Below, in pieces: positions 27,751 to 40,488 of a stretch of 64,000 nucleotides of DNA. Each line of letters opens with the position of its first letter. Positions within the stretch are counted from its first letter, which is position 1. Location of the stretch: positions 1 to 64,000 of the forward strand of contig PBLA01000027.1 of the NCBI GenBank assembly GCA_002722245.1, given 5' to 3'. Made by a program: the position numbers and the translations under genes. The notes beneath the pieces were generated by a model. The model was not told the DNA's origin. It searched no databases and saw only the letters and a list, made by a program, of their open reading frames with translations. The stretch comes from Flavobacteriales bacterium. GTDB lineage: Bacteria; Bacteroidota; Bacteroidia; Flavobacteriales_C; GCA-002722245.

Positions 27751-29241
27751 CTATTGAACGGGAGCCTCCCAAGCATCTTTTGTGATCATTAAGGCCTCTT
27801 GCACAGTTATGCGACTTCCTGCGTTATATGCAGTGACAAACGGTCCTTTAATATTATAGTTTTCTTTGGCTAGTGTTCTGTGTGCACTAGCACTCATATA
27901 TTGTTTAAAGTCACCAACGGTATATTTATGCCATCCTTCATGCATGTTTTTGTATATCTTTTCATTGACATTATGGTTCTTAACAAAATGGTTTGTAGAC
28001 ACTTCTTTTTTAAGTGCACATATCTGAACTCTGTAATTTACTTCATGATTTGCATTTTCAGTTGGCTCTTGTCCTAATGGCACTAAACTATTCCCATTAT
28101 CATCTACTTTTGGACCATTTGAATCGTATGTATTAGAGGCTGTAGAGGCTTCGGTATTATCTGATGAGGCCGTTTCTTGTGTGTCTTTTTCGCTCGGTTG
28201 ATCAGTTGTGGCTATTTGATCGGTTGGCATGTCTTTCTGAGGTTTATTACCTTCTGGCGTATTGTTTTCTGTATCTGTTACCTCATCTTCTTTTTGGATT
28301 TCGTCAGGGTTCTCTGGTGTTGATTCAGCGTTTGTTTGCTCTGTTGTATTTACTGCTAAAGTTTCGTCAGAGGTTTTATTGATTGAAATAGAGGTTCCAT
28401 CAATTAAATATTGCTTTGTGTCACTTCCGTCTAAATATGAAATTTTTCCATCAATGACTTTATTTCCACTAAGGGTTGGGTCCACAGCGACTTTATAACT
28501 TACCGTAAAGTCATCCTCTGCAGGAAGTGTCATCCACAAGAATTTAACTTGAGATCCTTTTTGACTAAAAATTGCACCATTTGCCTCTACTTCTTGCGCC
28601 GTAAATCCTTCTGGAACATTCTCAATGATTTTTCCTACACCCGATACGTTTGATTTTTTAATATTAAGTTTAACTACGAATGTACCTCCGGATACAATTT
28701 GGGAGGCATCAAACGTTCTTGTGCAGCTTAAGTCTGTTGAACTCTTTCCAGATGCGACATTAATTCCTGTTCCAGATGTTTCTGCATTTGCTTGGTTTGG
28801 AGCTCCAGTATTTGTATTTGGAGAGACGTTGATATTACTTGTTACTAAATCCTTGCTCATTCTTTCACCATCCTTGACAAAAGATATTTTACCACTGAAA
28901 TTGAAATCACCTGCAATGGATCGATCTGTGGCTACTTTTAATTTTACTGTAAATTCTGGATCTGATGGCAATGAAATCCAAATTAATTTCATTTTTTGAT
29001 CATAGAATGTGAATGTACCTCCTTTTCCTTCTAACAATTCAGCTGTAAATCCCTCTGGAAAGTTTAACTGTAATTTTGCGAAATTAGAAATCTCACCCTT
29101 ATTGATCTTTACATCCATAATAAATGATTCTCCTGCTGCGATTTCGTTTGGAGTCTCAAACGAGATATTCATTTCTGATTGGGTGAAAAAACTTGCTATA
29201 CTTAAAATTAGAATTGATGAAGCCGCAAAAATACTTTTCAT
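27751..29241 (-). CDS. Secreted protein with duplicated beta domain and SPOR-like C-terminus
   Basis: The 496-residue protein starts with a signal peptide (residues 1 to about 22). Two homologous domains follow at about 24-140 and 172-288. Each carries a PEGFTA motif, a W-containing ISLP or MTLP turn, FTV-x3-KVA, and a closing GKIS strand. A Thr/Glu/Asn-rich disordered linker fills about 290-400. The C-terminal region (about 403-496) begins YRVQICALKKEV, contains HEGWHKYTVGDFKQY and ends with SRITVQEALMITKDAW. This resembles SPOR-type domains, which in other proteins bind denuded peptidoglycan. The exact family is not recognised. The gene is alone, with a 239-nt upstream gap. Confidence 0.75.
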   Translation of the reverse strand: MKSIFAASSILILSIASFFTQSEMNISFETPNEIAAGESFIMDVKINKGEISNFAKLQLNFPEGFTAELLEGKGGTFTFYDQKMKLIWISLPSDPEFTVKLKVATDRSIAGDFNFSGKISFVKDGERMSKDLVTSNINVSPNTNTGAPNQANAETSGTGINVASGKSSTDLSCTRTFDASQIVSGGTFVVKLNIKKSNVSGVGKIIENVPEGFTAQEVEANGAIFSQKGSQVKFLWMTLPAEDDFTVSYKVAVDPTLSGNKVIDGKISYLDGSDTKQYLIDGTSISINKTSDETLAVNTTEQTNAESTPENPDEIQKEDEVTDTENNTPEGNKPQKDMPTDQIATTDQPSEKDTQETASSDNTEASTASNTYDSNGPKVDDNGNSLVPLGQEPTENANHEVNYRVQICALKKEVSTNHFVKNHNVNEKIYKNMHEGWHKYTVGDFKQYMSASAHRTLAKENYNIKGPFVTAYNAGSRITVQEALMITKDAWEAPVQ

Positions 29242-30801: not shown

Positions 30802-31563
30802 TTACTGTTGAACAGGTTGTAAAGTTAATTCATCTCCATCGAACCATGCAAAATGCGGATTTCCTGTTACCCATTCGCCAAGATTAATATATCGGGCGTT
30901 TTTATTTTTGATCTTTAGGTCTAGTACTAAGTGTCTGTGACCGAAAATAAAGTAATCAAAATGCTCTTTTTTTAAGATGTTTTGAGCATAGATGTATAGC
31001 CATTCTTTTTCGTCGCCCAAGAATTCCTCTCCTTTTTTAATGTTCGATATACGCGATTTTTTACTCCAAAAGTTTGCGATTCCCATACCAAGGTTGGGAT
31101 GTAATCTCGCAAAAAACCATTGACAAACTTTAGATTGAAAAAAGGTTTTAATGAATTTATAAAACCGATCTCCAGGTCCTAATCCATCTCCATGTCCTAT
31201 GAAAAATTTTTTTCCATTCCATTCTCTCTGAATAGAGTCCCTATGAATCGTTATTCCTAATTCTTGAGGCAGGTAGTCAAACATCCACATATCATGATTC
31301 CCTGTGAAAAAATGAATAGGAATTCCAGAATCATTTAATTCTGCAATTTTCCCTAGAAATCGAGTATATCCTTTCGGAATTGTGTGTTTATATTCAAACC
31401 AGAAATCAAATAGATCTCCAACAAGGTATATTTCCTGTGCGTCTGAACGAATAGATTCTAGCCAGTTTACTAATGTTTTTTCACGTTCTCTACTTTTTTC
31501 ATAGTTGGGGACACCTAAATGAAAATCAGAAGCAAAGTATATTTTTTTACCTTTTTGTATCAT
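30802..31563 (-). CDS. lpxH: UDP-2,3-diacylglucosamine hydrolase-like metallophosphoesterase
   Basis: LpxH cleaves UDP-2,3-diacylglucosamine to lipid X and UMP in lipid A synthesis. The 253 residues show calcineurin-like motifs: Asp13 and His15 in FASDFHLG, then LVGDLFDFWFEYKH, FFTGNHDMW, FFIGHGDGLG and FGHRHLVLDLK. The insertion YKFIKTFFQSKVCQWFFARLH is typical of the lipid-binding cap. It overlaps the M1 peptidase gene by 4 nt and shares its operon with lpxK, which supports a lipid A role. Confidence 0.9.
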   Translation of the reverse strand: MIQKGKKIYFASDFHLGVPNYEKSREREKTLVNWLESIRSDAQEIYLVGDLFDFWFEYKHTIPKGYTRFLGKIAELNDSGIPIHFFTGNHDMWMFDYLPQELGITIHRDSIQREWNGKKFFIGHGDGLGPGDRFYKFIKTFFQSKVCQWFFARLHPNLGMGIANFWSKKSRISNIKKGEEFLGDEKEWLYIYAQNILKKEHFDYFIFGHRHLVLDLKIKNKNARYINLGEWVTGNPHFAWFDGDELTLQPVQQ

Positions 31564-34505
31564 TTTAATAACTTATACAATTGGTCAACGTGAATCATAA
31601 ATTTAATCCGGTTGAAGAAATTAAATTCATTTTCAGCTGTTAAAGGATTATTCCCTAAACCAGAAATGTTATAATCCTCATCAATAGCATCGGAATAACC
31701 AAAAGGAAAGTATATTTCAAAATAGTTCTTCTTTATGTTTAGTTGAAGACCATAGTCATAAAGGAAGGGAACACTTCCTGGATTATTTAAGTAGTTTTCA
31801 ATAATTCTTTCCGAAGAGGCAATATCAGAGAAAAAGGAAATGTATTTAATTGGAAAAGGGACAACAATATTTAAACTAGCCATCCAAATAGTTGATGATA
31901 TTGTACTCATCCCGCTTTTAAATCCGGCATCCTGAATAAAGATTTGTTGACGAGCTAAACTCGTACCTTCGGATATAAATCGACCGTATGTTGAATGCTC
32001 CAATAAGTAATCTGGGGTAGTATAGTTAAAGTTTTCAAGATCACTAGAGGCGATTAGTGTACCATTATTACCGCTTAGATTGAAACGTTCCGTGTACGCA
32101 TTTACGCTCTGTAAAAAACAGCCAGCAAAAGTTCTTATATCTATAGTTTGTTTTTTAGAATTTAGTGTGATGCCATAATTGAATTCGGTAGATAACTTCC
32201 AGTTTTGATCAAATGCCTGGAGCCTAATGTTTCCAGAATAGGGGTTTATGGCTTTTTTATTTGTTGCCGAATACTGAAAAGTGATGTAATTTTTTTTGAT
32301 GGATTCTCTTCTATCAAAACCAATTTCTATTGCGGAAAGTTTAGCTTCAATACTAGATTTAAACGAAGATCGAGCATTGGGTTGGTGAATTTTAAAATCT
32401 AACCCTGCTTCAATTTTCTCTATTTGCCCAGGTACAATTCCCAGATCAAGTCCCTGTCTCTTAAGGTTGATATTGACATTAATTTTATCAAAGTACTCTC
32501 CAGGGTAAATGGAGTAAATAAATTGTCCATTTCCAACCAGTTTGTTCGTTCCAAAAGAGAATTGCGGTAGTACAAGAAATCTAAATTTACGTTCCTGAAT
32601 ATTTAAATTAGTTGCTGCTACTCCCAATTGCAAATCGTCATGTAAATTATACCCCATAATGGGTGAAAAGAAGATTTGAGTTTTATCGGGTTTTTCAAAA
32701 TCAAAGGGAAAAGAAGCTTCCAAAGGCTCTATATTTCCAATGAAGCTAAACAACGTAAAAGAGTTGTTTTTTCTATTTATTTCGGGCATATCATGGTAAA
32801 AATCAATTACAACTTTATCGTAATCCCCATAAGGGAAAGATAGTTTTTGAGTACCCCAAAAGCCTTCATACCAGGCTGTATTTATTACTTTTCCGCGTTT
32901 AAGTGCAGTGATTACTAAAGGTCCAGCGATTTCACCAACATTCGTTACCACAACATCAAATTCTTTGTTGTCCCAAGAGTAACCTGCATTATTGATTTTA
33001 TAATCAAGAGTATAGGTTGTAGTGAGTAGGTCATCGAAAAACCAATCTAAATTTTTAGAGGTATGTTTTTTAAATATAGCCTGAAAGTCTTTTGGTTGTG
33101 GATGTTTAAATTTCCAAGTTTCGAAGTAGTCTTGCATAATTTGATCGAAAAAGGGTTTTCCTAGATATTTTTCTAAGTAATTTAAAATAACCGCTGATTT
33201 ACTGTAAACGACAGCACCATAATTTATATTAGAGTATTGATCAGCCGATAGATTTAAGGGCTGACTACTGTTTCGCGTATTGACAAAGTCGTGGAGATAG
33301 TGGTGGTATTCTGTATGTTTTGGTGTTTGGCTTTTAACAAATTTTCGCAAAACAGGAATGAAATCATCAAATCTTTCCTCCGTTTTCACTTCTTCATAAT
33401 ACCTTCGCTCATAGTAAGAATTCATACCTTCATCCATCCAAGGGTGTTTTCTTTCGTTTGATCCTAAAACACCATAAAACCAATTATGCCCTATTTCATG
33501 AAGTATGACTTCTTCATGAAATTTTCGTGAGTCACCGGGTCCTAAAACGGTTATTGTTGGATATTCCATTCCTGCTCCGGCAGTTAATCCACCATCTACA
33601 GCTCCACATATGCTGTATGGGTAATCACCCACCCATAAACTGTAGTAGTAAATTGCGCTATCCACATATTTTACCGAATTTTCATAGATATTTTTGTTTT
33701 CAGGTCTATATTTTATGTATGTTTTAACGGTTCTGCCTGAATAGGGCAAAACAACTTCACTAACCTCTTCTTGCCAAGTAGTGTCGGCAAACCAAGCAAA
33801 ATCGTGAACGTTATCTAATTGATAACGAACTGTTTTTTTTCCTTCATGTAACAATGTGTTTTCAATTTGATTTCCTGATGCTGCAATTTTATATTTTGAA
33901 GGTACGGTTACAGTGACATCAAACTTACCGTATTCAGAGTAAAACTCTCCCGTGGTTAAATAAGGCATTACATTCCATCCATTATGATCATAAACAGCAG
34001 GTTTAGGATACCACTGAGTAATTTGATAGGAATCATCTAAATGTCCCATTCTTGAAACTTCCCCATAAGGAACTTTTACTCGAAAAGGAGTTGTGATTTC
34101 AATGGAGCCTCCTGGAAGAAGATGATTGGGTAAATTAAACCATGCTACTTCGTTTCCTAGTGCATGATTTTTCAATTGAACAGCTGTTCCATCCACTTTT
34201 AATGACAGACTATCTAGCCTTCCGATATATTTAGAATCACCAAAATATAGAAGCGTGTTGTTGTCTTCAAGTATTTGCTTTGCTAGTGGAGTACCGGATT
34301 GATACGCATTTGGCCAGAGATGAAAAAACATTTCATGGAGCGTATCAGGCGAGTTATTTACATAAATTATTTTCTCATAGGCATGTAGTAGGTGGTTTTG
34401 ATCTTCTAATTCAACATGAATGTCGTAATTGACTTCCTGTTGCCAGTAAGCGTTAACTTGCAGATGTATAAAAACCAGAAGGACTACTGAAATGAGTTTA
34501 TTCAT
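31560..34505 (-). CDS. M1 family metallopeptidase with probable beta-barrel C-terminal region
   Basis: The 981-residue protein has a signal peptide (about 1-19) and an N-terminal beta-saddle domain. The catalytic zinc site His336, His340 and Glu359 forms an HExxH-x18-E pattern in HEIGHNWFYG and WMDEGMNSYY. The exopeptidase-like AGAGMEYPT motif precedes it. From about residue 600 onward there is no peptidase homology; alternating hydrophobic and polar strands with aromatic girdles continue to the end (FFNRIKFMIHVDQLYKLLK). This looks like an outer-membrane beta-barrel or a related beta structure. It overlaps the neighbouring genes by 4 and 8 nt. Confidence 0.85.
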   Translation of the reverse strand: MNKLISVVLLVFIHLQVNAYWQQEVNYDIHVELEDQNHLLHAYEKIIYVNNSPDTLHEMFFHLWPNAYQSGTPLAKQILEDNNTLLYFGDSKYIGRLDSLSLKVDGTAVQLKNHALGNEVAWFNLPNHLLPGGSIEITTPFRVKVPYGEVSRMGHLDDSYQITQWYPKPAVYDHNGWNVMPYLTTGEFYSEYGKFDVTVTVPSKYKIAASGNQIENTLLHEGKKTVRYQLDNVHDFAWFADTTWQEEVSEVVLPYSGRTVKTYIKYRPENKNIYENSVKYVDSAIYYYSLWVGDYPYSICGAVDGGLTAGAGMEYPTITVLGPGDSRKFHEEVILHEIGHNWFYGVLGSNERKHPWMDEGMNSYYERRYYEEVKTEERFDDFIPVLRKFVKSQTPKHTEYHHYLHDFVNTRNSSQPLNLSADQYSNINYGAVVYSKSAVILNYLEKYLGKPFFDQIMQDYFETWKFKHPQPKDFQAIFKKHTSKNLDWFFDDLLTTTYTLDYKINNAGYSWDNKEFDVVVTNVGEIAGPLVITALKRGKVINTAWYEGFWGTQKLSFPYGDYDKVVIDFYHDMPEINRKNNSFTLFSFIGNIEPLEASFPFDFEKPDKTQIFFSPIMGYNLHDDLQLGVAATNLNIQERKFRFLVLPQFSFGTNKLVGNGQFIYSIYPGEYFDKINVNINLKRQGLDLGIVPGQIEKIEAGLDFKIHQPNARSSFKSSIEAKLSAIEIGFDRRESIKKNYITFQYSATNKKAINPYSGNIRLQAFDQNWKLSTEFNYGITLNSKKQTIDIRTFAGCFLQSVNAYTERFNLSGNNGTLIASSDLENFNYTTPDYLLEHSTYGRFISEGTSLARQQIFIQDAGFKSGMSTISSTIWMASLNIVVPFPIKYISFFSDIASSERIIENYLNNPGSVPFLYDYGLQLNIKKNYFEIYFPFGYSDAIDEDYNISGLGNNPLTAENEFNFFNRIKFMIHVDQLYKLLK

Positions 34506-35655
34506 TTCCTACAAGTTTTTTTACCAATTGATGAGCTACTTCACCTCTTATATGATCTCCTTCGTCGAGAATGTTTCCATTGGGGTCAATAATCATTAAT
34601 GTTGGATAATGTTCAATTTTATATTGTTTGGATGTGCCTTCTCCATTTGCATCAAATAATTGAATCCAGTTGGTTTGGAATTTTTCATTAATTCTTTTCC
34701 AAGAGTTAATTGTTGATGGATTACCACGGTCAATACATACACTAATAACTTCAAACTGATCACCTCCGAAGTCTGATTTAATTCGTTTTAGATTTGGGAT
34801 TTCGGCAATACATGGTCGGCACCAAGTTGCCCAAAAATCAAGAAGAACATATTTTCCTTTGAAGTCGGATAAGCTAACGCTATTATTATTCACATCCATT
34901 AGCGTGAAGTTATAGGCTGGTTGTCCAATAGAGTTGGCGTATAATGATTCTATTTTATTGTGGAAGTTCATTACATCCTCATTGCCGTTGTAATTAATTA
35001 TTATTGCGCTATCTACCAATTGATAAATCGATTTATATCTTTTTTGATCGAGCGAACTTAGGGCGACTAAATTTGAAAACTGCCCTGGGTGTTTTTTAAT
35101 GTAACGCAATACAATACTCTCCTCTTTCTTTTTTGCTTGTGCGTAAAGTACTTGAAATTCCTTGAGAAGTGCGTGATGAAGTTGTTTTGATTTTGCTTTT
35201 TCAAAAACATAACTTAACGAGTCGGTATAATATTTTGACGCTTTTAAAAAGGTGATTAAGGAATCTAATCGAGCAATCTCTGGTGTTCCTTCAATTTTGC
35301 TAGTTGCATATAAGGAACGCGCATTTCCGGTTATTTTGATTCGATCACCAGGTTCAGCCATAAACATAACTCCTCCATTACCTTCTTTTTCTTCTGGAAG
35401 ATAAATGGAGTAAAATGAAGTTTTGGATTGATTTATAAGAAATTGGGCTTCTCCTTTATTATTTGCCTCTACCGTGTCTAATTGTATAGTTTTTGTTTTC
35501 GAGGTGGATAACAGCTCCAGAACAACTTTTTTAGAAAACATGCTGTCCAATTGTACGTTTACTTGAATATCTTTTTCACTGGAGAATGATTGTTTTTTTT
35601 CTCCACATCCAACTAGAAGAGGAAGAGTAAATAGTGTATACCAAAAATATTTCAT
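34498..35655 (-). CDS. TlpA-like thioredoxin lipoprotein
   Basis: The 385-residue protein has a lipoprotein signal ending LVGC at residue 17. A beta-rich N-terminal domain of the DUF4369 type follows (about 28-120), with DRIKITGNARSLYATSKIEG, then a helical segment. The thioredoxin domain begins near residue 247 with FKGKYVLLDFWATWCRPCIA. The WCRPC active site is intact, so a thiol-disulfide exchange role outside the inner membrane is expected. It begins 1 nt after the purine nucleoside phosphorylase stop and overlaps the M1 peptidase start by 8 nt. Confidence 0.88.
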   Translation of the reverse strand: MKYFWYTLFTLPLLVGCGEKKQSFSSEKDIQVNVQLDSMFSKKVVLELLSTSKTKTIQLDTVEANNKGEAQFLINQSKTSFYSIYLPEEKEGNGGVMFMAEPGDRIKITGNARSLYATSKIEGTPEIARLDSLITFLKASKYYTDSLSYVFEKAKSKQLHHALLKEFQVLYAQAKKKEESIVLRYIKKHPGQFSNLVALSSLDQKRYKSIYQLVDSAIIINYNGNEDVMNFHNKIESLYANSIGQPAYNFTLMDVNNNSVSLSDFKGKYVLLDFWATWCRPCIAEIPNLKRIKSDFGGDQFEVISVCIDRGNPSTINSWKRINEKFQTNWIQLFDANGEGTSKQYKIEHYPTLMIIDPNGNILDEGDHIRGEVAHQLVKKLVGNE

Positions 35656-35656
35656 A

Positions 35657-36469
35657 CTAAATATGATAAATTAATTCTTTAAAAAGTAAGGTTAACCGAG
35701 GTTCGGCTTCCATAGCTGTGTTGATAATGTCCTGAATATCTACAGGTTTAATTTCTCCAAAGCAAATATCGGTAATTATTGAGCATGCAAAACAATTAAT
35801 ATTAGCATGTTTGGCAGCAATTACTTCAGGAACAGTGCTCATACCCACGGCGTCTGCACCGATAATTCTTAAATAGTTATATTCAGCAGGTGTTTCTAAC
35901 ATGGGTCCCGGAAGCCCAACATAAACACCTTTTTGTATTGTGAATTCGTGTTTGTTTGCCGCTGCCTCAGCTTTTGAAATTAGTGTATTGGCATATGGTT
36001 CATACATGTCTACAAATCGCGGGCCTATTTCTTCTATATTTTCACCAATCAAAGGGTTCCCTGGGAAGTGATTTATATGGTCTTTTATAACCATTAAGTC
36101 ACCTTTTTTATACGATGAATTTAAACCTCCAGCTGCATTAGATATTAAAAGTGTTTTTACCCCTAAAAATTTCATGACTTGCACAGGAAATGCAACCTCT
36201 TTGAGAGAGTAACCTTCATAATAGTGAAATCGCCCCTGCATTATAATCACTTTCTTCCCTGATAATTCGCCAAAAATTAATTTTCCTTTATGAGATTCCA
36301 CTGTGGAAATAGGAAATGACGGAATATCTTCATATTCAATTTCATGTTCAATATTTACGTCATTAACTAACCCCCCGAGACCCGTGCCTAGTATAATTCC
36401 TATTTGAGGTTGAAATTGATTTGTACTATCCTGAATAAATTCAGCAGTATTTTTAATTTTCTTGAGCAT
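35657..36469 (-). CDS. punA: Purine nucleoside phosphorylase, trimeric type
   Basis: This enzyme phosphorolyses inosine and guanosine to free base and ribose-1-phosphate in purine salvage. The 270 residues contain the phosphate loop GIILGTGLGGLV, STVESHKGKLIFGELSGKKV, MQGRFHYYEGYS, ISNAAGGLNSSYKKGDLMVI and the base-binding DAVGMSTVPEVIAAKH segment. These are typical of the PNP-I/XapA family. Its start lies inside the last 17 nt of lpxK, so it belongs to that operon. The gene_symbol is by family match. Confidence 0.9.
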   Translation of the reverse strand: MLKKIKNTAEFIQDSTNQFQPQIGIILGTGLGGLVNDVNIEHEIEYEDIPSFPISTVESHKGKLIFGELSGKKVIIMQGRFHYYEGYSLKEVAFPVQVMKFLGVKTLLISNAAGGLNSSYKKGDLMVIKDHINHFPGNPLIGENIEEIGPRFVDMYEPYANTLISKAEAAANKHEFTIQKGVYVGLPGPMLETPAEYNYLRIIGADAVGMSTVPEVIAAKHANINCFACSIITDICFGEIKPVDIQDIINTAMEAEPRLTLLFKELIYHI

Positions 36470-37520
36470 AGGTTAAAATAGTTTCGTCAAAAGTAGGGTC
36501 ATCCTCTTGTCCTTTATGGAATTTCACCTCAATGGGGATGTAAAATAACGGCACTTCCTCTAACAAAGGATATAAACGCTCATCCTTTAACCGCATGGCA
36601 TCTTTTTCCGTGGTGATTAATATTTTTTTGGAGGATATTATCTCTTTGAATTGATTAATTAAACGAACGATGTCAACAGGTTGAAAATTGTGATGATCAC
36701 TAAACTCAGTAACAATAACATCTTTTGCGGTTTGTTTCACATAATCAATTAGCGGATTTATTTTTGCAATTCCGGCAAACACAATGGTTTTATACTCTTG
36801 GAGTTTAAATTGATCGGAAAGTAAGTGCTTTGCCATATCATTAAATGCGCAAATTGGTTTGTAATCAATGTAACTAAAGAATAAATTTTGATCATGATGT
36901 GGTTTAATTAAGCCACTTATTCTTCTGTGTTCAATAGGTGAGTATAACTTTGGTGATTTTGTGACAACAATAATATTAGCTCGTTTTTTTCCAGATTTCC
37001 ATTCTCTCAATTCTCCCGAGGGCATCATAAATTGCTTTTTTCCAATAGAAGAATAATCGATTAAGAGAATATTAATTTGTGGTTTTACCCAACGATGCTG
37101 ATAACAATCGTCCAATAAAATGATATCTGGATGTATTTCTTTTTCAATATTTGTGAAACCTCTTCGTCTATTTTCATCCACTACAACAGTTACGTCAGTA
37201 AATTTAGAATGGAATTGCATGGGCTCGTCCCCAATTTCAGCATATGTTGATTTTTCATTTGCAACATAATAACCTTTCGTTTTTCTTAAGTATCCTCGGC
37301 TTAATGTTGCCAACGAATATTTGGGGTTTAACAGTGTGATTAAATATTCAATATGAGGAGATTTTCCCGTGCCACCCACGGTTATATTCCCTACCGAAAT
37401 AGATTTTGTTTCAAATTCTTGTGATCTAAAAATTCCAAGATCAAAAAGAAGATTTCTTGCCTTGGTGATGATTCCAAATAAAAAAGCAAACGGTAGTAAA
37501 AGAACCCGTAGAAAAAACAT
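36453..37520 (-). CDS. lpxK: Tetraacyldisaccharide 4'-kinase
   Basis: LpxK phosphorylates the 4' position of the lipid A disaccharide precursor at the inner membrane. The 355 residues begin with a hydrophobic membrane-associated segment (FFLRVLLLPFAFLFGIITKA). The family motif SVGNITVGGTGKSPHIEYLI contains the Walker A loop near residues 49-54. The mid-region ILLDDCYQHRWVKPQINILL matches the substrate-binding motif. It is the first gene of an operon continuing into punA. The 134-nt upstream gap probably holds its promoter. Confidence 0.93.
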   Translation of the reverse strand: MFFLRVLLLPFAFLFGIITKARNLLFDLGIFRSQEFETKSISVGNITVGGTGKSPHIEYLITLLNPKYSLATLSRGYLRKTKGYYVANEKSTYAEIGDEPMQFHSKFTDVTVVVDENRRRGFTNIEKEIHPDIILLDDCYQHRWVKPQINILLIDYSSIGKKQFMMPSGELREWKSGKKRANIIVVTKSPKLYSPIEHRRISGLIKPHHDQNLFFSYIDYKPICAFNDMAKHLLSDQFKLQEYKTIVFAGIAKINPLIDYVKQTAKDVIVTEFSDHHNFQPVDIVRLINQFKEIISSKKILITTEKDAMRLKDERLYPLLEEVPLFYIPIEVKFHKGQEDDPTFDETILTYAQEN

Positions 37521-37654: not shown

Positions 37655-38800
37655 TTATTCGCAACTTTCATTCAATAAAATGGCATTTAGTGGGGTGACA
37701 TCGATTAGTTTTTGAAACAATTGATTGCTGTTTTTTGATAAGTGTTTTTTTATTTTTTTGTGCTCATAGACTCGCCATTCAACCACGCAACCATAACGAG
37801 AAATCCAACCCCATAAATTTTTATCGATGTGCACCAGGTAGTTATTGACACCATCTCGAACATCCCAGTAATCTGCATTCGAAAACGCATCTAATTGGTT
37901 AAGTGAATCCTTAAATATATCACATCCTCGATTTAAATTACTCACATAAACCATGGAATCGTTCTCAATATAAACATATCTTCTGGACTTATAATAAACA
38001 ACATCCGGACCGTTGATATTCACAAGAACATCTGAAGGTAAACGCTCTGTCCACTCTCGCTCTTTACGATAAACAGCAGTGTCGTTAAGATTTAGGGTTC
38101 TTGTGGTAGTGACACCATTCCAATATAATTTCCTTTCACATGAATTTGAATTTGCAAGTACAAAATGAACAGGGTATGTACGAACTATATTTAGTGGTAA
38201 ATCAACAGAATTTTTATTTTCATCATAAAGATCATTGGAAAAAAAGCCTAGTTTTATCCTATTGCTAAGTTTTAGAGCTTCTTCAATTTCAGGATGATTA
38301 GTTGCCTCTTTTTTACTTAAATCAGCAAGTATTATTCGTTTTTTATTATAATCGAAAAAGAATTCTATCCTTTTCTCACGGTCATCAGGTGGACCTACTT
38401 CATATTTTCTTTTTTGAACTAATGGTTCCTCTGCCATGGTAAACATATTGTATGTTTTTTCAAAAAAAGGAAAGGTGAATTTCATTCCTTCATTTTTAGA
38501 TCGAATTAATTTTCCAGCATAGGTCAAAGAATCTCTTAATAAGTAATCCAGTTTTGTATTAGCCTCTTTTAATTTCCAGTGACTCCATCGAATTAAAAAC
38601 GTATCATTATCATAAACTTGTAAATAAAGTCGCATTGGAAAAATGCGCGCTTCATTTGTTTTTTTATTCAAATTATGGTTTGAGAATTCGTCTGCAAAAA
38701 CAAAATATTTGAGCTCTGGAACTTTTCTTATTTTAAAGGTAAAAAGTTGAGCACTTACATTAACCTGGAGAGAAAGGAAAAGAATTAAAGTTCTAACCAT
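37655..38800 (-). CDS. Unrecognised secreted protein of the sigma-factor module
   Basis: The 381-residue protein is not recognised. It has an N-terminal signal peptide (about 1-17, LILFLSLQVNVSAQ) and is rich in aromatic and charged residues. Short strand-like repeats such as DTAVYRKEREWTERL and VYIENDSMVYVSNLNRG are seen. Three Cys are present (in NSCERKLYW, RGCDIF and SRYGCVVEW), so disulfides are possible. Its start overlaps the end of the upstream membrane protein by 16 nt, placing it third in an operon with the ECF sigma factor. Confidence 0.65.
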   Translation of the reverse strand: MVRTLILFLSLQVNVSAQLFTFKIRKVPELKYFVFADEFSNHNLNKKTNEARIFPMRLYLQVYDNDTFLIRWSHWKLKEANTKLDYLLRDSLTYAGKLIRSKNEGMKFTFPFFEKTYNMFTMAEEPLVQKRKYEVGPPDDREKRIEFFFDYNKKRIILADLSKKEATNHPEIEEALKLSNRIKLGFFSNDLYDENKNSVDLPLNIVRTYPVHFVLANSNSCERKLYWNGVTTTRTLNLNDTAVYRKEREWTERLPSDVLVNINGPDVVYYKSRRYVYIENDSMVYVSNLNRGCDIFKDSLNQLDAFSNADYWDVRDGVNNYLVHIDKNLWGWISRYGCVVEWRVYEHKKIKKHLSKNSNQLFQKLIDVTPLNAILLNESCE

Positions 38801-40488
38801 TTTGCTAAATCCGATTTTGATCGAGGCTTACCCATGACCTTAAAAACCATTTGCCCATTATCAATTTGTTGAAGTATCCCGATTTGGTTGTTTACAAGAC
38901 CAATTGTTCTCTTACTGTTTTCAAACCCTTCATAGGCTTCGTTGATGATTGCTTGATGCGAAAAAATACCATTTAATTCAGGGAAAACATCAATAATCAA
39001 TGCTTCATTTACATCCTTTTTAAAATGAATTGTAGTTAAGAACTCGGGCTCCTTTTTTTGCATTTTTTTCATTCGATCGCAATTATAGACACCAAAATTC
39101 TCAACTTGAAAAAATCGGATTACCTCTGCCTTTATTTTTTTATTTGTAAACTGCGCTTTTTCGAGTGTTGCAATTCGCTCAAGACGTTCCAGTTTTGCTT
39201 TAACCAATCCTTCGTCAATTTTTTGTGATCGAATTTGCTTTGCAAAGAACTTTATTTTTTTTTCTACTTCCTTTAGGGCCTTTTTGTGATTTTGGAGTTT
39301 GCTTTGCATGTTCAAATATTCTTCATGCGCTTTTTCATAAGCCAACCCTTCTAAAACAGGAATAACTTTATATTTAACCTCCTCTGCTGAATTGGTTTTA
39401 GAAAAGGTAACCATCAATTGCTCTCCTTCTAGTTTTTTTAAATCTACCTTGTTCCAATTTGTATTTGCATGAATTGGATTAATTGTTTCGCCAGGAGCAA
39501 GTTGAAATTGAACATCTTTGTAAGGGCTCAGTTCTGGATTTTCTTTCTCTATAATGTCTAAACTAAATTTTTGTGTATTTTCATCGGCCTTTCTTGGAGG
39601 GGAGGGAATAGCAAGGCTTAATTCATCAATTTGAGCTTGAATTTGAATACGCTTTCTTTTTCTTTTCTGGTATTCTGGAGCCTTTTGTAATTCAGCGTCA
39701 ATTTGATCTTTAGGAATTACAATATCCTCTTTCTTAATAATTGGGATTTTAGCGTTGATTTCCTCTTGAGTTAACTTTTTAGGCTCTGGTTTGCTTACAC
39801 TGTCTTTACCTAAATATTCCCATTTCTTATTCTTTTCATCTAAACAGTAAAAGTTGTATTCTGTAATGCTGTAATTAGATTTCATTTCAACCTCAATGGG
39901 TTTTTCAGGATTTAAATTTACAGCAGAGTCTCCTATGTATCCTCTTACTTCAACCATTCCAGCTGAAGAAAACATATATTTTATTCCAGCTGAATCATAG
40001 GTCATTGGAATTCCCGAGATAATTTGATCCGCTACATCTTTATATTCAGTAAATTTTAGATCGACGGTTTGATTAGTTATCGTTTTACCTTTTTTATTAA
40101 AGAAAGCGAATGCTGGAATTCTTAAAATACTTCCATGTCTACTTTTAAAAATTCCACCTTTGTTTGCATCAACCTGAAATACATCGGATTCAACTCTTAA
40201 ATCATCAAATGGCGGGTTAATAAATGGTTTCTCTGTTAAATTATCCGGTGCAACAGGATCTGTTTTTGATTGTTCATTTAAAGTAGTATTAAGATCACCA
40301 ATGTTTGCAATTAAAAGAGTTCCAAGTACTATAGTAGCTAATCCTGTACTAGCCCAAAACCATCCTTTTTGATAAAAGGCTTTGCCTTTGGCTTGGACGC
40401 CTTTATAAAAGGAGTCGAAATCTTTTTTGGCATTAATCTCTTTGGAAGAGAATTTTTTGCCGTCTATGTCGAATTTATAATCGGTCAT
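38785..40488 (-). CDS. Membrane-anchored protein paired with ECF sigma factor, possible anti-sigma
   Basis: The 567-residue protein starts with about 42 cytoplasmic-type residues, followed by one membrane span (about 43-64, GWFWASTGLATIVLGTLLIA). The remainder would be periplasmic. Residues about 95-215 form a beta domain, with GSILRIPAFAF, IISGIPMTYDSAGIKYMFSS and AGMVEVRGYIGDS. A similar domain occurs in many Bacteroidota surface proteins. A Lys/Glu-rich coiled-coil region spans about 385-450. It begins 2 nt after the sigma factor stop. A short cytosolic N-terminus plus one span fits an anti-sigma regulator, but no known anti-sigma motif is seen. Confidence 0.7.
   Translation of the reverse strand: MTDYKFDIDGKKFSSKEINAKKDFDSFYKGVQAKGKAFYQKGWFWASTGLATIVLGTLLIANIGDLNTTLNEQSKTDPVAPDNLTEKPFINPPFDDLRVESDVFQVDANKGGIFKSRHGSILRIPAFAFFNKKGKTITNQTVDLKFTEYKDVADQIISGIPMTYDSAGIKYMFSSAGMVEVRGYIGDSAVNLNPEKPIEVEMKSNYSITEYNFYCLDEKNKKWEYLGKDSVSKPEPKKLTQEEINAKIPIIKKEDIVIPKDQIDAELQKAPEYQKRKRKRIQIQAQIDELSLAIPSPPRKADENTQKFSLDIIEKENPELSPYKDVQFQLAPGETINPIHANTNWNKVDLKKLEGEQLMVTFSKTNSAEEVKYKVIPVLEGLAYEKAHEEYLNMQSKLQNHKKALKEVEKKIKFFAKQIRSQKIDEGLVKAKLERLERIATLEKAQFTNKKIKAEVIRFFQVENFGVYNCDRMKKMQKKEPEFLTTIHFKKDVNEALIIDVFPELNGIFSHQAIINEAYEGFENSKRTIGLVNNQIGILQQIDNGQMVFKVMGKPRSKSDLAKWLEL

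Follow-up and report, generated by a model that had tools for sequence, protein, structure and literature searches.

Omp85 proteins insert proteins into outer membranes or move them across. Ten Omp85 families have been distinguished (PMC4104836, PMC11116518), and the N-terminal POTRA domains, which lie in the periplasm (PMC11116518), are usual but not universal, as a 'noNterm' group exists (PMC4104836). In the patatin-like Omp85 proteins an N-terminal enzyme precedes a C-terminal 16-strand Omp85 barrel, and the prototype of this enzyme-headed design, PlpD, is reported to keep its enzyme in the periplasm (PMC11116518). The 'Metallo' subfamily (Heinz and Lithgow 2014, PMC4104836) joins an Omp85 barrel to an N-terminal metal-dependent domain that is calcineurin-type (PF00149) though called a metalloprotease. 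The gene analysed here occupies positions 31560–34505 of a 64,000-nucleotide stretch, the window, at the start of contig PBLA01000027.1 of a Flavobacteriales bacterium (assembly GCA_002722245.1). It lies on the minus strand, as do the features of the gene and the neighbours of its run for which coordinates are given below, and encodes 981 residues plus a stop, exactly the open reading frame that the original prediction had delimited. Its product appears to combine an M1 metallopeptidase domain with a C-terminal barrel of predicted Omp85 fold.

The protein resembles PlpD in its order of enzyme and barrel, but differs in carrying an M1 metallopeptidase fold, with no patatin domain in Pfam and no POTRA detected, and in being widespread in one Bacteroidota class; unlike the 'Metallo' proteins it has PF01433 and not PF00149. 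Literature searches, made in an open-access library from which most subscription papers are missing, returned no title or opening of an abstract on an M1-Omp85 fusion, and the main text of the Heinz and Lithgow survey (PMC4104836) contains no word that starts with 'peptidase' or 'aminopeptidase'. It is proposed that the fusion would be exported by Sec, that its C-terminal 16-strand Omp85-fold barrel would insert in the outer membrane, and that the M1 zinc-peptidase domain would be held at the periplasmic mouth, where other Omp85 proteins have POTRA domains. To this proposal as a whole (export, an outer-membrane barrel of Omp85 fold and a periplasmic M1 domain) we assign a probability of about 0.7.

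Predicted structure and kinship of the C-terminal barrel

To collect relatives, 84,980 species, each represented by a single genome, were scanned with a pattern, which returned 123 stretches; the best 80 were kept, and their record titles name Bacteroidota taxa. The alignment comprises the window protein and 54 of these 80 relatives (55 rows), the remaining 26 being truncated, near-copies or dropped for size, and the long C-terminal tail anticipated from the single sequence proved to be conserved among them. AlphaFold2, run on these 55 rows, gave a full-length model with a mean predicted local distance difference test (pLDDT) of 88.7 and a predicted template-modelling score (pTM) of 0.88; the tail predicted alone reached 85.9 and 0.85, and the strands of both models agree. 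According to DSSP, the barrel (residues 609–971; 31593–32681) is built from eleven strands at residues 609–620, 624–632, 641–650, 655–666, 672–687, 692–706, 715–730, 736–749, 756–765, 768–780 and 787–797, followed after a 76-residue loop by five more at 874–883, 889–898, 915–925, 929–937 and 968–971. The 76-residue loop (residues 798–873; 31887–32114), which joins strands 11 and 12 and is modelled with low confidence, stands at the L6 position of Omp85 proteins, and a helix (residues 973–980; 31566–31589) follows the last strand in the model. A soluble tail of Ig-like or HEAT domains is contradicted by the AlphaFold models, which show 16 barrel strands instead and none of those domains.

Comparison of the tail model with known structures by Foldseek yielded 610 matches with E ≤ 10, and the 50 listed all belong to the Omp85 superfamily (BamA, CdiB, Sam50/SAM, TamA and FhaC), the best at E 2.6e-8. 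VIA-align, which re-aligns Foldseek's own matches, likewise returned only Omp85 proteins among its 50 listed rows, with Z values of 15.1–18.0 and root-mean-square deviations (rmsd) of 3.8–5.9 over 255–287 aligned residues. Its top row is a chain of the SAM-Tom40 complex (7vku_A), and F. johnsoniae BamA (9n2e, Z 16.2) and TamA are included. Like BamA, Sam50, TamA and FhaC, the tail as predicted has the barrel fold, 16 strands and a long loop joining strand 11 to strand 12, while the M1 core replaces their POTRA domains and the VRGF/Y motif is missing in the window family, being present in the family of a paralogue described below. VRGF/Y is the Omp85 L6 motif and reads LRGY in F. johnsoniae BamA (PMC12611786). 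Residues R842, Q854 and G919 of the tail are identical in 55/55 rows, and the first two lie within the long loop; R842 (31980–31982) is a candidate counterpart of the VRGF/Y arginine, an equivalence suggested by its position rather than by superposition. On the strength of the predicted models the tail very probably has the Omp85 fold, which agrees with the 12–16 strands expected in the original prediction, and the barrel would be evident to anyone viewing the AlphaFold model.

That prediction, which named an M1 enzyme with a barrel, was largely right, partly for the wrong reasons. The alternation of hydrophobic and polar residues that had been taken as a sign of a barrel is no more pronounced in 15 barrel strands (mean 2.33) than in 13 soluble core strands (mean 2.28; one-sided Mann-Whitney p = 0.16) and is therefore not counted as evidence, and the chain terminates in ...VDQLYKLLK, not in the aromatic ending that had been described. 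The prediction did not extend to the type of barrel, the probable periplasmic placement of the M1 domain, the second fusion of this genome or the relatives with a dead active site.

Several observations count against the proposed Omp85-fold reading. In the model, the loop holding R842 is poorly defined (block pLDDT 51–67 over residues 811–850), and the closing strand is short (968–971) and preceded by a segment with pLDDT below 50 (950–960). The Foldseek template-modelling scores are modest (0.35–0.48, with rmsd of 7.9–14.6), and D894 in strand 13 (31824–31826), part of an FxDxG-like stretch, is not universal (D in 45/55 rows, S in 9 and G in 1). At the sequence level, the C-terminal 400 residues of the window protein have no Pfam match, Omp85 and POTRA included, the tail profile matches no PDB sequence up to E 10, and VRGF/Y does not occur literally in the tail, whose loop has the invariant R842. 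The hhalign comparison of the tail with Omp85 barrels (score 31.5–32.3, E 0.004–0.006) carries a probability of just 6–8%, and DUF5686 (PF18939) scores higher (36.5–37.3, E 0.0007–0.0018, probability 15–26%). Control pairs come near these values over 8–23 columns (PorP-Omp85 29.1, FadL-Omp85 25.2, FadL-DUF5686 28.9 and PorP-DUF5686 28.2).

Since the control pairs reach 29.1, and the tail of the paralogue scores 27.3 with PorP, low hhalign scores weigh little, and with probabilities of 6–26% the sequence of the window tail alone would not prove kinship with Omp85. In 29 column shuffles the tail profile peaked at 26.0 with Omp85 and 19.5 with DUF5686, and the 31.5–32.3 obtained with Omp85 barrels lies above the former maximum and above the values for FadL and PorP/SprF. 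With the M1 core the unshuffled tail profile gave 14.6. FadL (17.1) and PorP/SprF (18.8) were rejected as relatives of the window tail, their scores falling inside the shuffled range. The Pfam families matching any of the 55 tails, listed up to E 10, do not include PF01103. DUF5686 weakly matches 4/55 tails (best E 6.3e-6) and not that of the window protein; the likeness in hhalign extends over 53–54 columns, and the N-terminal part of DUF5686 proteins has no similarity to the M1-type domain of the catalytically dead relatives treated below (score 21.0). Proteins with DUF5686 (L098-L127), weakly similar to the window tail, are frequent in the same genomes.

Taken alone, the weak sequence profiles would suit a soluble tail or an outer-membrane barrel that has no relation to Omp85, a reading made very remote by the listed fold matches, all of them Omp85, by the fitting strand count and loop position, and by the LRGY kept in the paralogue. 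The window tail is best regarded as a divergent Omp85-fold barrel outside any named subfamily, because the literal VRGF/Y, a POTRA domain and a Pfam Omp85 match are absent and the sequence similarity is marginal.

A second M1 fusion and related barrels

The genome contains four M1 genes, and two of them, the fusion in the window and a paralogue, have a barrel tail; in the other two neither tail profile finds anything. The paralogue lies on the same contig outside the window, at about 168029–171220 (G000:C29; L195:130-3321), in a frame of 1064 residues, and its tail contains GGGLNLRGY and a FADAG stretch and ends in ...RAF. Among 20 aligned members of the paralogue family the R and G of LRGY are invariant (20/20), the pattern [VIL]RG[YF] is found in 19 (the exception, L199, reads MRGF), and 19 end in Phe. 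Against Omp85 barrels the paralogue tail gives hhalign scores of 46–48 (E 2.5e-5, probability 75%), against the full-length Omp85 profile E 1e-4 (57%), and against the window tail E 0.00035 (37%, 52 columns). Pfam returned single weak matches and no Omp85 on the 20 paralogue tails, and the paralogue tail profile found one irrelevant match among PDB sequences (E 0.41). As far as sequence comparison goes, the paralogue is a better link to Omp85 than the window tail.

The relationship of the two fusions was examined in a quick tree of M1 cores, which includes 21 M1 proteins without a match to either tail profile up to E 1 and leaves out L240. A single branch sets off each barrel type from the rest (support 100 and 99), and the order at the base is not resolved, so that one or two fusion events are both possible. 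The paralogue-type barrel profile matches 35/198 genomes of a sample of the phylum, namely the window's own and 34 that lie in other classes; the frames mostly measure about 400–470 residues, some about 1000. Around these matches seven stretches were fetched. Five (L281-L285), from other classes, hold stand-alone barrels with [LI]RGY and have no M1-core match in 10 kb; the other two (L286, L287) hold M1 fusions of about 1007 residues outside the window's class; the paralogue profile matches the tails of both, which contain no [VIL]RG[YFAS] motif. The stand-alone form may be a barrel lacking POTRA domains that gave rise to the fusion.

The M1 core, its inactive relatives and possible functions

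The N-terminus of the window protein reads as a signal peptide (residues 1–19; 34449–34505), as judged from the sequence and a model helix at residues 2–17, with a predicted cleavage site; there is no Cys among the first 35 residues and hence no lipobox. The M1 core (residues 20–500; 33006–34448) is indicated by the Pfam Peptidase_M1 match (PF01433, residues 327–491, E 1.1e-18, 68.1 bits versus a cut-off of 27.7) and by the full-length model, whose 50 listed Foldseek matches are M1 aminopeptidases; NCBIfam matches of the protein are all sub-threshold. In the AlphaFold model, with strands assigned by DSSP, the catalytic domain extends to about residue 500 and is followed by a beta-sandwich (strands 502–567; 32805–33002), at what we take to be the position of M1 domain III, a linker, and the barrel strands from 609. 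The Pfam scan of the window protein found no POTRA domain; this beta-sandwich stands in its place. The core is slightly shorter than in the original prediction, which put its end near residue 600.

Residues 312–316 (GMEYP; 33558–33572) occupy the position of the M1 exopeptidase motif, typically GAMEN, which reads GxMEY here, and G312, M313, E314 and Y315 are each conserved in 55/55 rows. The same holds for the zinc motif HEIGH (residues 336–340; 33486–33500), with H336, E337 and H340, for E359 (33429–33431), at the position of the third zinc ligand in HExxH-x18-E, and for Y434 (33204–33206), at the position of the catalytic tyrosine. The M1 active-site residues are intact in the window protein, and the fusion is likely to be an active aminopeptidase in this organism.

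A different picture emerged from two families, f24 and f21, which we guess to be Flavobacteriaceae and Weeksellaceae. The set considered comprises 14 of the 18 f24 matches to the window-type tail profile in the phylum sample (without G053, G144, G168 and G180) and both f21 matches. In these 16 proteins (L240, L243-L256, L261) E314, H336, E337, E359 and Y434 are lost without exception, and H340 is aligned with H in one (L255). The 14 f24 members retain R842, Q854, G860 and D894, as do the two f21 members except for R842, replaced by Q and E. The dead proteins nevertheless retain a full-length M1-type core, as a comparison with the active core shows (hhalign probability 100, E 1.7e-65, score 519.5 over 531 columns, versus at most 22.2 in 15 shuffles), and the barrel is retained (E 4.7e-61). 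In a quick tree made without the active-site columns a single branch (support 100) separates the 16 dead members from the others, corresponding to one change. Scans of three dead proteins up to E 1 returned nothing from Pfam or NCBIfam, and the M1 match is the only one above cut-off in the window protein, so family databases hide the fusion.

Given this dead clade, peptidase activity cannot be the universal role of the family, a point against the proposed peptidase function. Since the active site is lost while core and barrel are kept, the M1 fold in f24 and f21 must have a role other than this catalysis. In 12 loci outside f24 and f21 examined alongside, the window among them, the catalytic residues are intact, and catalysis therefore seems under selection there. 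Active and catalytically dead relatives form a natural pair that allows a direct test of which counts, the enzyme or the fold.

The M1 domain is placed in the periplasm because Omp85 proteins have their N-terminal domains in that compartment and PlpD retains its enzyme domain there; the M1 core stands at the usual POTRA position and so probably faces this compartment. The most speculative step of the proposal is that it might trim or hold the N-termini of unfolded outer-membrane proteins or of peptides, loosely like BepA, a protein of family M48 that is not known to have a barrel. BepA is cited as an analogy only, being a periplasmic zinc metallopeptidase that acts on an outer-membrane protein during assembly (PMC8423444). 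Handling of outer-membrane proteins is the leading guess at function and is put somewhat below even odds, with nutrition and surface display weaker.

A rival reading would make the protein an Omp85 assembly factor or translocase, with the M1 fold mainly a POTRA-like substrate-binding module and cleavage secondary or accessory. The 16/16 f24 and f21 proteins that lost the active site by one change on the quick tree and keep the M1-type domain with its barrel speak for it, as does the statement that the Omp85 proteins studied before PlpD all promote assembly or translocation of outer-membrane proteins (PMC11116518). It appears unlikely given the intact catalytic residues of the other members (55/55 rows and the 12 loci) and the rarity of an Omp85-profile match beside the fusion gene, found in just 1/80 loci (L014) and 0/10 further stretches, where other bam genes were not searched for. 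A broader reading, in which an unrecognised Omp85 lineage found throughout this class, presumably Bacteroidia, has replaced POTRA by the M1 gluzincin fold as its periplasmic client module, with catalysis optional and given up by one clade that keeps the architecture, and with the M1 domain primarily a receptor for client N-termini, is held only tentatively and as rather doubtful.

The enzyme-then-barrel order shared with PlpD would also fit a barrel that delivers the M1 domain to the outside of the cell, in the manner of the early PlpD secretion model (PMC4104836), where it would serve nutrition as an extracellular aminopeptidase. Another phylum has an autotransporter with arginine-specific aminopeptidase activity, which likewise joins an aminopeptidase to an outer-membrane transporter domain, but one of autotransporter and not Omp85 type (PMC3426542). 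With the PlpD enzyme domain since reported as periplasmic (PMC11116518) and, less firmly, a two-domain model of pTM 0.88, surface display is improbable. A further reading, favoured by exopeptidase motifs that are intact at what is presumed to be the periplasmic mouth, makes the barrel an entry pore for peptides, which the M1 domain would degrade to amino acids. Such a pore is quite improbable: L6 of BamA enters the barrel lumen (PMC12611786), the corresponding loop here (798–873) is long, and dead-clade members are hard to reconcile with a digestive pore.

Distribution and gene context

The window-type tail profile matched 35/198 genomes across the phylum, and one of these, G047 (E 1e-4, L262), proved not to be a member and was excluded. 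The remaining 34 matches are all in the window's class, in frames of 927–1055 residues except one of 501 with a stop, and the M1-core profile matches 28/28 of those fetched (weakest E 1.2e-39). When the class was sampled more densely, the tail profile matched 212/295 genomes and 108/156 genera at E ≤ 0.001, a number to be read as an upper count since weak matches (G363, E 1e-3; G377, 4e-4) may resemble G047. Among the class-sample matches listed, most frames are about 1000 residues long and eight are under 900. The combination of M1 domain and barrel is common in this bacterial group, and a peptidase-fold-headed family with its tail in up to 212 of the 295 class genomes would be a large unstudied envelope component, in a phylum whose BAM machinery was recently found unusual (PMC12611786).

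The fusion gene belongs to a run of genes, overlapping or close together, in the order lpxK, purine nucleoside phosphorylase-like, thioredoxin-like, fusion, LpxH-like and rlmB-like. The lipid A 4'-kinase family gene lpxK (36453–37520; PF02606, E 2.4e-66) and the phosphorylase-superfamily gene (35657–36469) are followed by the thioredoxin-like gene with DUF4369 (34498–35655), which shares an 8-base overlap with the fusion gene, and a calcineurin-type phosphoesterase gene (30802–31563), the LpxH-like one, overlaps it by 4 bases downstream. Only some relatives keep this arrangement: of their 80 loci, 15 have an LpxH-like gene, which in 10 lies downstream at a distance of no more than 80 bases, 14 have LpxK, 14 the purine nucleoside phosphorylase and 17 the thioredoxin-like gene, and about 30 others, mostly Chitinophagaceae by title, have different shared neighbours. 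Ten further stretches include seven of the dead type, with uvrA-like and LOG-like genes upstream in 5/7 and an oxoacid dehydrogenase-like gene downstream in 6/7. As these housekeeping neighbours differ among clades, the context does not fix the function; its hint of envelope biosynthesis is confined to certain lineages. Without a Pfam match elsewhere in the window are a 496-residue exported-looking protein (27751–29241), which contains a domain repeat and an acidic stretch of low complexity, and two overlapping genes at 37655–40488 that encode 381 and 567 residues.

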